This document shows, one piece after another, positions 1-56,996 of a stretch of DNA of 61,788 nucleotides. The notes under the pieces are model-generated. The model saw only the letters and a program-made list of their open reading frames with translations, did no database searches and was not told the DNA's origin. The first letter of the stretch is position 1, and every line of letters starts with the position of its first letter. The stretch covers positions 1 through 61,788 of IMG/VR virus record IMGVR_UViG_3300021062_000016, one strand, 5' to 3'. The DNA comes from a virus. A program made the position numbers and the translations under genes.

Positions 1-203
1 GCCCGTAGGAGCGGGCATAGCAGACGCTTGCGAAGCTCAATGAGGTCCGGCGGCATCCGGTCGTAAAGCTTGCACCATTCGGCCATTGTTTCTTCCGGGG
101 CATCCGGGGCGAGCGCAACGACAACATCGTCTATGCGCCAGAACAACCGCTCCTCGGAGGTGCGACCGCGCATGATCCGAGCCTCGGCGTCAGTCAATTC
201 CAT
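1..203 (-). CDS. Small hypothetical protein, part 1 (crosses the genome join)
   Basis: This is the 5' part of a leftward gene that starts at ATG 203-201 and runs off the left end. Joining the terminal repeats gives a 68-residue protein, complement of 146-203 plus 61640-61788, ending in CPTPAA and a TAA. It opens MELTDAEARIMRGRTSEERL and is acidic, with no domain I recognise. The first 19 bases of the window give a different tail (CPLLRA, no stop) from the right-end copy, so the left end seems to come from a variant. It lies directly downstream of the structured RNA at 465-654. Confidence 0.7.
   Translation of the reverse strand, partial: MELTDAEARIMRGRTSEERLFWRIDDVVVALAPDAPEETMAEWCKLYDRMPPDLIELRKRLLCPLLR
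20..145. repeat. Terminal direct repeat, left copy (126 bp)
   Basis: Bases 20-145 are identical to 61663-61788. A 126-bp overlap between contig ends is what a de Bruijn assembler leaves on a circular or circularly permuted molecule, so it is probably not a biological terminal repeat. Reading across it restores an intact gene. Upstream of base 20 the two copies diverge. Confidence 0.9.
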
Positions 204-464: not shown

Positions 465-654
465 GGAGTCGTGTGGATGACAACGGAGCCGGGCGGCGCG
501 CTACCAGACTGCGCCACGACACTTGCGTGTCGGCCGGATTTGAACCGGCGCAATGCTTGGGCATGACCCAAACACCCCGAGATGCGATGGGGCGCGACCC
601 CGCCACAGTTGCTCGGCTCCGCCATCGGCGTTCCGTTGTCATCTACACAACTCC
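465..654 (-). ncRNA. Permuted tRNA-like structured RNA, candidate bacterial Y RNA (YrlA class)
   Basis: Read on the minus strand, the 5' end (654-632) pairs with the 3' end (487-465) over 23 positions with one A-C mismatch and one G-U. Inside come a hairpin at 573-555 (7 bp, loop UCAUG), a canonical T arm at 549-533 (GCCGG, loop UUCAAAU, CCGGC), then directly an acceptor-like stem 532-517 (CGACAC, GCAA, GUGUCG), two linker bases UG, and a D arm 514-498 (GCGC, loop AGUCUGGUA with GG, GCGC). These are tRNA parts in permuted order: the acceptor is closed by a GNRA tetraloop and the molecule opens where the anticodon stem would be. Published bacterial Y RNAs have this plan. No U-rich terminator or obvious promoter is visible, so it may be processed from the early transcript; its 5' arm overlaps the end of the upstream gene. 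Confidence 0.75.
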
Positions 655-53401: not shown

Positions 53402-53530
53402 ATGCGCAAACACCGAAAGCGTAAGCAGCCCATGAAACCTCGAACCCGCACCTTCGACCCCGACGACGAACAGGACAAATCCATGGACGAAGAAAAGACC
53501 CCGATCTACCTGGGCCCGGTGAACAAATGA
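53402..53530 (+). CDS. Small protein (42 aa)
   Basis: GGAG five bases before ATG 53402; stop overlaps the next ATG as ATGA. Basic start MRKHRKRKQPMKPRTRTFDP turning acidic. Start signal and overlap support a real gene; function unknown. Confidence 0.6.
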   Translation: MRKHRKRKQPMKPRTRTFDPDDEQDKSMDEEKTPIYLGPVNK

Positions 53531-54861
53531 GCGAAGTGAGTCCCCCCATGGACCCAGGCGTAGAGGTTCTGGCCACCGATATTGCCCATCCCGAATCCTT
53601 CGCTAGAGCCATCTACCACCAATGCAGGGCAGGGGATTCACCCGGAGCCATCGACCTGGGAGCGACAGCCCTTCAGCTATATCCGAACCACGCCCCCATC
53701 TGGGACGCCGTTGCTCTGGCTCTTCGCTACCCCGACAGGCTCGAAGACGCCGAAGCGTTCCACCGCAGAGCCGTAGCGCTTGAACCCAACAACCCGGGCT
53801 TCAAGACCAACCTCGCCATGACTCTGATTGACCTGGGCCGGACACAAGAAGCTAGCCAGCTTCTGCGCGAAGTCCTCAATGCCAATCCGTTTTTCCAATA
53901 CGCCGGCATCCAACTGATGCTGGCTGAGCTGATGAGCGGGAATCTGGAAGAGGGATGGAAGGTCCACAGCCAAAGACTCGGCTGGCACGCCTACGCCAGC
54001 CAGATTCGGGACAGCAAACTCCCCACATGGGACGGCAAGTCCAAGGGCAAGATTCTCCTCCTCGGTGAAGAAGGCGCCGGCGAACGCATGATGTACGCCT
54101 CCATGTTCCAGGAGGTTATGGATTCTGGAAACGAGATCGTCATCGAATGCTGTGGTGTGAACGGAGGCTTCAAGCGCTTCGCCCGTTTGATGGAACGAAG
54201 CTTCCCCCAGGCTGAGATTTCCCTGACCCCCGGCAGCGCCAAAGCAGATTACCAACTCGCGATGGGATCCCTGGCCCCCATCTTCCGCCCCACCTGGGAT
54301 CACTTCCCCAAGCACCGTGGCTACCTGAAAGCCAACCCCGCCCGGACGGAACAGCTCCGCCGCAAGATCAACGCCAAGGGCCTCACCGTCGGTCTCTCAT
54401 GGAAGTCCGGCAGCACCAACCTGATGCCGCGCAAGAGCCTGCCCATCCATGCGTTCAAACAGATTCTCGGCATCGACAACATCACCTTCGTGAACCTTCA
54501 GTTCGGCGAAACCGTAGACGACCGCAATTCATCCCACGAAGCCATGAGCATCGTTGATACCGGAGTGGACCTCTACAACGACATGGAGGGAGTTGCTTCC
54601 CTGATGAAAGCCTGCGACCTGGTCATCACGGTGAGCAACACCAATGCTCATCTTGCTGGTGCACTGGGAATCCCCACCTGGATTCTCGTCCCCGCCCGCA
54701 CCGGGCGCATGTGGTTCTGGGGCCTGAACCGCGACGACTGCCCCTGGTACCCCAGCGTCAAACTGTTCCGCCAGGAAGAGACCTGGGGCCCGGCGCTGGC
54801 GAAGCTTCATCGTTCCCTGCTGAACCTGCAGTGGGAACGCCAGTTCCTGAGCGCGGCGTGA
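53527..54861 (+). CDS. TPR protein with a C-terminal glycosyltransferase-like domain
   Basis: 444 residues, ATGA overlap. Residues about 20-150 form three to four tetratricopeptide repeats (AIDLGATALQLYPNHAPIWD; AFHRRAVALEPNNPGFKTNL). From residue 170 a GT-B-like domain follows (KGKILLLGEEGAGERMMYAS ... LTVGLSWKSGSTNL ... DLVITVSNTNAHLAGALGIP ... CPWYPSVKLFRQ), as in bacterial TPR/heptosyltransferase-like proteins. It probably glycosylates a virion protein or a host surface molecule. Unusual in a phage late operon. Confidence 0.8.
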   Translation: MSEVSPPMDPGVEVLATDIAHPESFARAIYHQCRAGDSPGAIDLGATALQLYPNHAPIWDAVALALRYPDRLEDAEAFHRRAVALEPNNPGFKTNLAMTLIDLGRTQEASQLLREVLNANPFFQYAGIQLMLAELMSGNLEEGWKVHSQRLGWHAYASQIRDSKLPTWDGKSKGKILLLGEEGAGERMMYASMFQEVMDSGNEIVIECCGVNGGFKRFARLMERSFPQAEISLTPGSAKADYQLAMGSLAPIFRPTWDHFPKHRGYLKANPARTEQLRRKINAKGLTVGLSWKSGSTNLMPRKSLPIHAFKQILGIDNITFVNLQFGETVDDRNSSHEAMSIVDTGVDLYNDMEGVASLMKACDLVITVSNTNAHLAGALGIPTWILVPARTGRMWFWGLNRDDCPWYPSVKLFRQEETWGPALAKLHRSLLNLQWERQFLSAA

Positions 54862-54864
54862 CAC

Positions 54865-55287
54865 GTGCTCGTCCGCATCGAGCGTTTGGACACAAGCGAC
54901 CAAGGAACTTTTGGAAGACTCACCGCCGGCGGACTGACTCTCTTCACCGGCGAGCTCCCGGATCGAAACAACGCACCGAACGTCTCCTGCATCCCGGCCG
55001 GGAACTACCAGTGCCTATGGACCTTCTCACCGACGTTTAAGCGCTTCATGTACGCCGTGGTCCCTGTAACCGGGAGATCGGGGATCAGGGTCCATCCCGC
55101 GAATTACATGGGCGAAAACCCGCCGTGGAGGAAACAACTCCATGGCTGCATCGCGCTCGGCGAAAAACTCGGGTGGATGGACAAGCAAAAAGCCGTCCTC
55201 CTTTCGGCGCCCGCGGTCACCAAACTCGAAAACACCCTTGAGCGGCAACCCTTCACTTTGGAGATCATCAATGCTTGGGCTTCTTAG
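54865..55287 (+). CDS. DUF5675 protein, lysis-region candidate endolysin
   Basis: 140 residues from GTG 54865. GTFGRLTAGGLTLFTGELPD, SCIPAGNYQC, SGIRVHPANY and LHGCIALGEKLGW follow the DUF5675 family, which has an H...GC pattern like L,D-transpeptidase-related folds. It lies immediately before the holin, so it is the best candidate for the missing endolysin, but enzyme activity is not established for the family. Confidence 0.7.
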   Translation: MLVRIERLDTSDQGTFGRLTAGGLTLFTGELPDRNNAPNVSCIPAGNYQCLWTFSPTFKRFMYAVVPVTGRSGIRVHPANYMGENPPWRKQLHGCIALGEKLGWMDKQKAVLLSAPAVTKLENTLERQPFTLEIINAWAS

Positions 55288-55828
55288 CTCCGTCCTCTCC
55301 GGCGGCCTCACCGGAATCCTGGGAGCCGGCATCCAGCGCTTCGCCGACTTCATGAACAAGAAGCAGGATATCAAGATCATGGAGTTGAAGTTCGCCCAGG
55401 AGGTGAAGCTGAAGGAGGTAGACGCCTCGATCATGCGGGAGGAATGGGCCCAGCGCACCAAAGTGGCCGAAGTGGAGGGGGCCGCGAAAGTCTCCGTTGC
55501 AGAGCAGGAAGCCTTCGCCAAGTCCTTCGAGATGGAGCCACAGCGTTACAGCGAGAAGGTGAAACCCGGAGCTGTTGCAGGGTTCATGCTCGTCCTGATC
55601 GACTTCATCCGCGGCCTCGTCCGCCCTGGATTGACGATTTACCTCTGCGTGCTCACCACGCTGATCTACTTCCAGGCCCGCGCGCTGTTGAATGATCAGG
55701 CCTTGTCGCCTGCAGAAGCAATGGCCCTCACCACCACCATCACCGAAACGGTGCTGTACCTCTTCACGACGGTAACGCTTTGGTACTTCGGCACGCGCAA
55801 TTCAGCAAAAGGACCCATGGCAAAGTGA
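55271..55828 (+). CDS. Holin (three-TM, gene-transfer-agent type)
   Basis: 185 residues. An N-terminal amphipathic/hydrophobic segment (GLLSSVLSGGLTGILGAG), a charged cytoplasmic coiled coil, and two C-terminal transmembrane helices (PGLTIYLCVLTTLIYFQARA; ETVLYLFTTVTLWYFGTR) after RGLVRP. This matches the holin family of alphaproteobacterial gene-transfer agents. Overlaps the DUF5675 gene by 17 bases. Confidence 0.75.
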   Translation: MLGLLSSVLSGGLTGILGAGIQRFADFMNKKQDIKIMELKFAQEVKLKEVDASIMREEWAQRTKVAEVEGAAKVSVAEQEAFAKSFEMEPQRYSEKVKPGAVAGFMLVLIDFIRGLVRPGLTIYLCVLTTLIYFQARALLNDQALSPAEAMALTTTITETVLYLFTTVTLWYFGTRNSAKGPMAK

Positions 55829-56139
55829 GCGGGGAAACTTGGGACAAAGTCTTGGCCGTTGCGTGCGCCGCAGCCGGGCTAGCGTTCCTCGTCAAGTGTG
55901 CGACTGCCGACGCCGCAGAAGAACCCGTGATGCCGCCCTTGTCCGTCGCCTACTCCTGTCCAACCGGCGACGTCCTCCACGTCGCATCGAATCACCCCGA
56001 CGTTCACATTGCGCACCTCATGGTGATGATCGGCCGCATCACCCCTGACCAATACATCGCATTACTCACCAGCATCACGCCCGACTTCGAACCAGCTGCC
56101 CATAAATTCCTCATCGAGTGCTTCGGCCAGGGTGTGTGA
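55825..56139 (+). CDS. Exported small protein of the lysis region
   Basis: 104 residues, GTGA overlap with the holin. A signal-like segment (KVLAVACAAAGLAFLVKCAT then ADA) precedes a soluble part with two cysteines (YSCPTGD, LIECFG). Could be a spanin-like or periplasmic helper; not assigned. Confidence 0.6.
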   Translation: MSGETWDKVLAVACAAAGLAFLVKCATADAAEEPVMPPLSVAYSCPTGDVLHVASNHPDVHIAHLMVMIGRITPDQYIALLTSITPDFEPAAHKFLIECFGQGV

Positions 56140-56996
56140 TGCAAAGCACAGGGACGCTGGGCAGGGTCAGATACCTGCCTGTGTCCCTTTACGCCGCTGG
56201 CTTGGTTCTCCTCGTCATTTCCCTGTTCCGCCCCGAAGCCGTCATCACCTGGCTTGCCCCAAGAGCCACCGTGATTCTCGCGATGGACATCTCCGGCTCC
56301 ATGCTGGCGGAGGATGTAAAGCCCACTCGTATTGACGCTGCAAGAGAAGCCGCCCGGGGATTCATCGCCGAACAGCCCGATGACGTGATGATCGGCTTGG
56401 TCGCGTTTGCCGAGTCCTCCCTCCTCGTCCAACCCCCAACCCACGACAAGGAGGCGTTGAGCCGAGCAATCGGCAGCTTGGAAGCGCAACCCGGAACCGC
56501 TGTTGGGTCCGGGATACTCCAAGCCCTCCAAGCTTTGGAGCCTCTAGCCGTACCGGACGACGACGAGCCGACGGCACCCGATCAACTCCAAGTCCCCGGC
56601 TCCAACCAGTCCTCCATCATCATCCTGATGACGGACGGCCAGACCACAAACGGCCCCGACCCGATCGACAGCGCCAGACTCACGTCCCACTACGGCATCC
56701 GCGTTTACACCGTGGGATTCGGAACCACGGAAGGAACGCTCGTCCCCATGGGCGAACGATTCCTCCACGTGGATATGGATGAAGCGACTCTCCGAACGGT
56801 CGCCGACATCACCCGGGCCAAATACTTCCATGCTTCGGATGGTGAGCAACTGAGACACGTCTACTCCACCCTGACCCGCGAGTTCATCGAGGGCAGGGCC
56901 AGAACGGAACTTACTGCTCTCTTCTGCCTCGCCGCAGCGATCCTCATCACCTTCGCTGTTTTCATCTCCCTCGGCCTCACCGGCCGCCCGCTCTAA
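56139..56996 (+). CDS. Membrane-anchored von Willebrand A domain protein
   Basis: 285 residues. One N-terminal transmembrane helix (YAAGLVLLVISLF), a vWA domain with a complete MIDAS (AMDISGSM, later MTDGQT and the threonine region), and a second helix near the C-terminus (ALFCLAAAILITFAVFISL). It resembles BatA/Aerotolerance-type vWA proteins, shortened. In phages such proteins are rare; position right after the holin suggests envelope or lysis timing. It lacks the TROVE domain of Ro60. Confidence 0.75.
   Translation: MQSTGTLGRVRYLPVSLYAAGLVLLVISLFRPEAVITWLAPRATVILAMDISGSMLAEDVKPTRIDAAREAARGFIAEQPDDVMIGLVAFAESSLLVQPPTHDKEALSRAIGSLEAQPGTAVGSGILQALQALEPLAVPDDDEPTAPDQLQVPGSNQSSIIILMTDGQTTNGPDPIDSARLTSHYGIRVYTVGFGTTEGTLVPMGERFLHVDMDEATLRTVADITRAKYFHASDGEQLRHVYSTLTREFIEGRARTELTALFCLAAAILITFAVFISLGLTGRPL

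Follow-up and report, generated by a model that had tools for sequence, protein, structure and literature searches.

A putative mobile palindromic element of tailed phages with a permuted tRNA-like RNA

The IMG/VR virus record IMGVR_UViG_3300021062_000016, analysed here over its whole length of 61,788 bases (the window), carries near its left end a palindromic sequence whose minus strand folds into a tRNA-like RNA. We consider it probable that this sequence is a non-autonomous mobile phage element of approximately 186–190 bp, the RNA of which joins a permuted tRNA mimic of the YrlA type to a long basal helix and two extra hairpins. The sequences themselves show the predicted fold and the paired changes that preserve it, copies in three phages that are otherwise unrelated, direct repeats of 11–12 nt and one apparently interrupted gene. 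A first-pass annotation of the same DNA had described the RNA as a phage-encoded permuted tRNA mimic, probably a Y RNA. The architecture it proposed stood, but the unit as a whole appears to be an insertion that unrelated phages have in common, with direct repeats on either side of it in two cases.

Structure of the RNA

The permuted tRNA-like structure of the RNA is real. The T arm, the closed acceptor hairpin with its GCAA cap, the two-base linker and the D arm were all present on the minus strand in the permuted order first described (Table 1). A helix of 23 positions formed by the RNA ends was borne out as a 23-nt inverted repeat (465–487/632–654, 91%); the full basal helix is longer, with 31 bp and two bulges, both on the 5′ side. 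Two added hairpins, H1 and H2, are placed between the basal helix and the T arm. The fold z-score was −8.3 for the minus strand versus −6.0 for the plus strand. Pairing probabilities were 0.91–1.0 in the T and acceptor stems, 0.78 in the D stem and mostly >0.95 in the basal helix, and they remained stable when flanks were added to a total length of up to 837 nt. Bases that make tertiary contacts in tRNA were kept in the core, namely the linker U, A14, G15, G18 and G19 of the D arm, the C preceding the T stem, and U54, U55, C56 and A58 of the T loop, numbered as in tRNA.

A covariance model (R1) was constructed from 27 modules of other viral contigs, with the window excluded. It matched the window at this site only (63.4 bits, E = 1.6e-17), the next match having an E value of 1.5. 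The 27 modules covary strongly, which should be read with the caution that they were selected for a closed acceptor. A looser module pattern matched once in the window and not at all in 60 first-order Markov shuffles. Pattern matches were filtered by the requirement for a closed acceptor; many raw matches were tandem ordinary tRNAs, and the filter is imperfect, as adjacent tRNAs whose acceptors match can also mimic the module (L092). The description as a circularly permuted tRNA mimic is thereby backed by an independent covariance model, together with the tertiary-contact bases and the compensatory changes in homologues reported below. The full-length model R2, of which the window is one of three members, scored the RNA at 185 bits.

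The Rfam model of YrlA (RF02553) aligned to the core at module positions 30–81 with 33.3 bits (E = 1e-5, 321 nt), short of its gathering score of 69. Phage modules linked to Ro60 also fail to reach this score, so the threshold is strict. The assignment to the YrlA class in the first-pass annotation, for which a search with YrlA models had been suggested, holds for the aligned module, though not at the gathering score.

ARAGORN called a tRNA-Pro (TGG) at 525–607 on the minus strand, which has its T arm in common with the permuted module. An ordinary tRNA at this position was rejected, as RF00005 gave no match even at E 10. DNA matches in Caulobacter phages were annotated tRNA-Pro genes, and the Erythrobacter phage DNA match that was examined was an ordinary tRNA with the same D-arm sequence.

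Conservation in unrelated phages

Two homologues, L373 and L374, were found in viral contigs by an inverted-repeat search with a free interior. Both hold the whole RNA, with 83–84% identity to the window over 169 nt and 93% to each other, and beyond the RNA no DNA similarity was detected among the three contigs. L373 and L374 are phage contigs, each with terminase genes; L374 additionally encodes a portal-type connector, RecT and a DNA methylase. Their copies fold as the window copy does (z-scores of −8.4 and −7.7).

Across these three sequences, two of which are close, so that independent events are limited, 14 of the 64 counted pairs were changed on both sides, compared to 5.0 in shuffles and 0–2 in slid pairings. 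RNAalifold counted 17 such pairs. In the outermost helix (654–645 with 465–474), seven of ten pairs were changed on both sides and none was broken; the outer helix has a distinct sequence in each copy, with pairing retained. The acceptor hairpin, shown for the window in Table 1, reads CGGUG-GAAA-CACCG and CGGCG-GAAA-CGCCG in the homologues. Compensatory changes in other phages, which the first-pass annotation had proposed as a check, were thus found, and the T, acceptor and D architecture was kept in both homologues.

We also considered a protein-coding explanation and rejected it. Indels in the window (+1, +2 and −1 nt) put its copy out of frame with L373 and L374. Between these two, 10 codons had changed nonsynonymously and 2 synonymously, so no protein constraint was seen. 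The conserved product appears to be RNA and not a peptide.

Insertion and mobility

The L373 copy was flanked on both sides by CCCGCACCGGG and the L374 copy by CCATGTGAGGGC. These direct repeats are 11 and 12 nt long, and the distance from repeat to repeat is exactly 198 nt in both contigs. Equally long direct repeats occurred in random intervals of the respective contig at a frequency of 0.0024 (L373) and 0.0015 (L374). The L373 element lies in frame within an open reading frame (ORF) of 167 codons. When its flanks were joined at one repeat, a 101-aa protein resulted whose alignment to CcrBL10_gp004, an uninterrupted Caulobacter phage protein of 95 aa, ran across the junction, with a score of 130, versus 88 with the insert retained. 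The L374 element sits after the stop codon of the methylase. Tandem-like repeats of 48 nt were observed just downstream of it (L374 6703–6750 and 6817–6864).

Mobility of the element is well supported. Near-identical copies in two unrelated phages indicate a small mobile element and not an ordinary Y RNA. It would be copied into new sites by a staggered cut that duplicates 11–12 bp.

Several observations weigh against this reading. The window copy had no flanking direct repeat longer than 6 nt, and only three copies of the element are known. Its outermost ends vary between copies, which is unusual for the inverted repeats of transposons, and neither a transposase nor a reverse transcriptase was linked to the element. 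No copy was found in 398 Pseudomonadota genomes, in a search without positive control.

BLAST with the L374 copy gave no match in phages, plasmids or E. coli. Likewise, no copy of the RNA was found in the searched records of phages related to the window by integrase, terminase or major capsid protein, in collections that may leave out records very near the window; those model matches in the relatives that were looked at proved to be ordinary tRNAs. The RNA is accessory, since relatives by major capsid protein lack it.

Rickettsia palindromic elements are small palindromic mobile sequences. The phage element is like them in being small, palindromic and mobile and in that it can reside in spacers or, in frame, within genes, as reported for a Rickettsia element within a gene (PMC5656822) and for others in spacers (PMC1950309). 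A palindromic repeat in unrelated contexts was found for all three copies; duplicated flanks were seen at the L373 and L374 copies and in-frame gene insertion at the L373 copy, neither being seen at the window copy. The phage element differs in its host replicons, which are phages, and in its tRNA-mimic fold, and the likeness drawn here is one of description.

Possible roles of the tRNA-like core

The element may be transcribed together with neighbouring genes; neither a promoter nor a terminator was found near the RNA on the minus strand. Its conserved tRNA-like core could then act as RNA by engaging a host factor that binds tRNA. Such engagement would aid the spread of the element, as in tRNA-derived short interspersed nuclear elements (SINEs), or would modulate RNA metabolism in the host with no need of a Ro60 from the phage. 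The tRNA mimicry hints that movement may involve a step based on RNA, or a host factor that binds tRNA.

The tRNA-derived SINEs of eukaryotes are non-autonomous, tRNA-derived RNA elements with target-site duplications. Non-autonomous status, tRNA kinship and target-site duplications are common to both, by analogy only; the phage element differs in being permuted and closed, with palindromic ends, no tail and no known reverse transcriptase partner. That it is a prokaryotic counterpart of SINEs, spreading via permuted tRNA mimicry with target duplications of 11–12 bp in or beside genes, is a tentative idea that we hold to be rather doubtful.

Ro60 is a known partner of Y RNAs. The latter have been reported from bacteria and mycobacteriophages (PMC8394870, PMC12282133), and YrlA tethers Ro60 to PNPase (PMC8394870). 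The element might therefore be an orphan Y RNA of the YrlA class, carried as phage cargo, which binds host Ro60 and/or PNPase and redirects host RNA decay. Besides that tethering, its YrlA-type module fits such a role, with its T and D arms and closed acceptor in permuted order, a linker of two bases, and ends that pair into a basal helix (PMC8394870, PMC12282133). Module and Ro60 also often go together: in the first test batch, 14 of the 22 viral records that had a closed module encoded TROVE, the Ro60 domain, and seven of the nine Ro60-positive alphaproteobacterial genomes carried the module on the same contig, within approximately 1.2 kb. A phage Ro60 profile was positive in 3 of 15 further module records.

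The window gave a different picture. In its near-complete record, TROVE was found neither by Pfam nor by the phage Ro60 profile, in agreement with the first-pass annotation, which had seen no Ro60 here, and DUF2828 was not found. The sole weak profile match, a 292-aa VWA protein (56118–56996), was rejected as a hidden Ro60. The motif UACUUC, our own empirical marker of Ro60 sites, was absent from the window RNA, whereas 11 of 17 Ro60-linked modules from phages and bacteria had it upstream. With TROVE, DUF2828 and UACUUC all missing, the Y RNA proposal was borne out in its architecture but not supported as to the partner. Ro60 was moreover encoded in only 9 of 385 sampled alphaproteobacterial genomes, a count that is relevant if the host belongs to that class. 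The two extra hairpins set the element apart from YrlA, as do its score and its behaviour as an insertion with target duplications; direct repeats and an interrupted gene, as in L373, would not be expected of an ordinary Y RNA gene. We regard the orphan Y RNA explanation as unlikely.

Defences that target tRNA confront phages, and the RNA might be a decoy or inhibitor of enzymes that modify or cleave tRNA, for instance against an anticodon nuclease of the host. The tRNA core is intact, and Salmonella YrlA has been proposed as a competitive inhibitor of anticodon nuclease (PMC7790460), but the RNA has no anticodon arm for use as a substrate and the insertion pattern would be left unexplained, which makes this quite improbable. 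Orphan Y RNA and decoy are both possible roles for the RNA and are compatible with mobility.

The element might instead be a feature of the DNA alone, its tRNA likeness being the relic of a captured tRNA gene: a miniature inverted-repeat transposable element belonging to an unknown insertion sequence, or a portion of the attachment site. This would account for the inverted repeats, the direct repeats at two copies and the integrase nearby in the window, but it is very improbable given the compensatory changes in the D, acceptor, hairpin and basal stems, a permuted order and GNRA cap unlike a tRNA remnant, and integrase relatives that are not adjacent to tRNA genes. Compared with a tRNA fragment at an attachment site, the RNA has a D arm, is permuted and lacks CCA. 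The direct repeats differ between copies and are therefore not the core of a site-specific attachment site. In L308, a phage related to the window by major capsid protein, the integrase lies directly beside a tRNA-Pro (TGG) gene (1518–1594), a likely attachment site.

Modules in other phages

Phage modules in our survey were of three kinds: linked to Ro60, linked to DUF2828, and unlinked, the last including tandem ones. Small RNAs lie within approximately 200 nt after DUF2828/DUF7788 proteins (L139 5546–7101, L104 2234–3803 on the minus strand, and L353–L372), and one of these RNAs frequently contains a permuted tRNA module; R1 matched over the full module at 10 of 21 loci. In mycobacteriophages these proteins carry the annotation 'Ro-like RNA binding protein'.

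Two permuted modules in tandem, approximately 17–19 nt apart, were seen in RNAs of L030 (8960–9074), L145 (235–122, minus strand), L077 (6749–6633, minus strand), L107 (7312–7424), L147 (7377–7219, minus strand) and L319 (genome G440). A short helix of its own seems to close each module, the helix sequences being different yet complementary. Ro60 was not found in these six records. The ORF adjoining the tandem modules of L030 and L145 matches an FAD-dependent oxidoreductase.

Genome context

The record is classed as linear. Its left-end stretch (window 17–145) is found again at the right end, which makes a circular, near-complete genome probable. Judging by its predicted integrase, S24-type repressor, Erf, SSB, terminase, portal and major capsid genes, the window is a temperate tailed phage. 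A TPR protein (53527–54861) is encoded near the right end, along with the VWA-domain protein mentioned above; the two lie within 53527–56996.

Table 1. Parts of the RNA and adjacent genes in the window
Feature	Position	Strand	Remarks
Whole RNA / palindromic element	465–654	−	RNA 5′ end at 654; fold z-score −8.3, full-length model R2, homologues L373 and L374
Basal helix, 5′ strand	619–654	−	Bulges AC and AU; A/C mismatch at 644
Basal helix, 3′ strand	465–496	−	Fold, inverted repeat, pairing probabilities, paired changes
Extra hairpin H1	577–616	−	CCGAGCAACUGUGGCGGGGUCGC...CUCGG; sequence strongly conserved across the three copies
Extra hairpin H2	552–576	−	Top GGGUCAUNCCC conserved; 4 of 10 counted pairs changed on both sides
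T arm	533–549	−	Loop UUCAAAU, identical in L373 and L374
Closed acceptor hairpin	517–532	−	CGACAC-GCAA-GUGUCG; GNRA cap, GAAA in L373 and L374
Linker UG	515–516	−	Counterpart of tRNA positions 8–9
D arm	498–514	−	Has GG; stem GCGC/GCGC in the window, GGGC/GCCC in homologues
Upstream ORF, 131 aa	643–1038	−	Stop codon inside the basal helix; no Pfam match
Tyrosine integrase	1591–2673	−	Upstream of the RNA, same strand

Significance

The element sets the permuted tRNA module apart from Ro60. If our reading is true, a permuted tRNA fold is able to spread independently among unrelated phages, and the element would offer a tractable experimental case for the movement of small palindromic elements, whose mobility has so far been unexplained.
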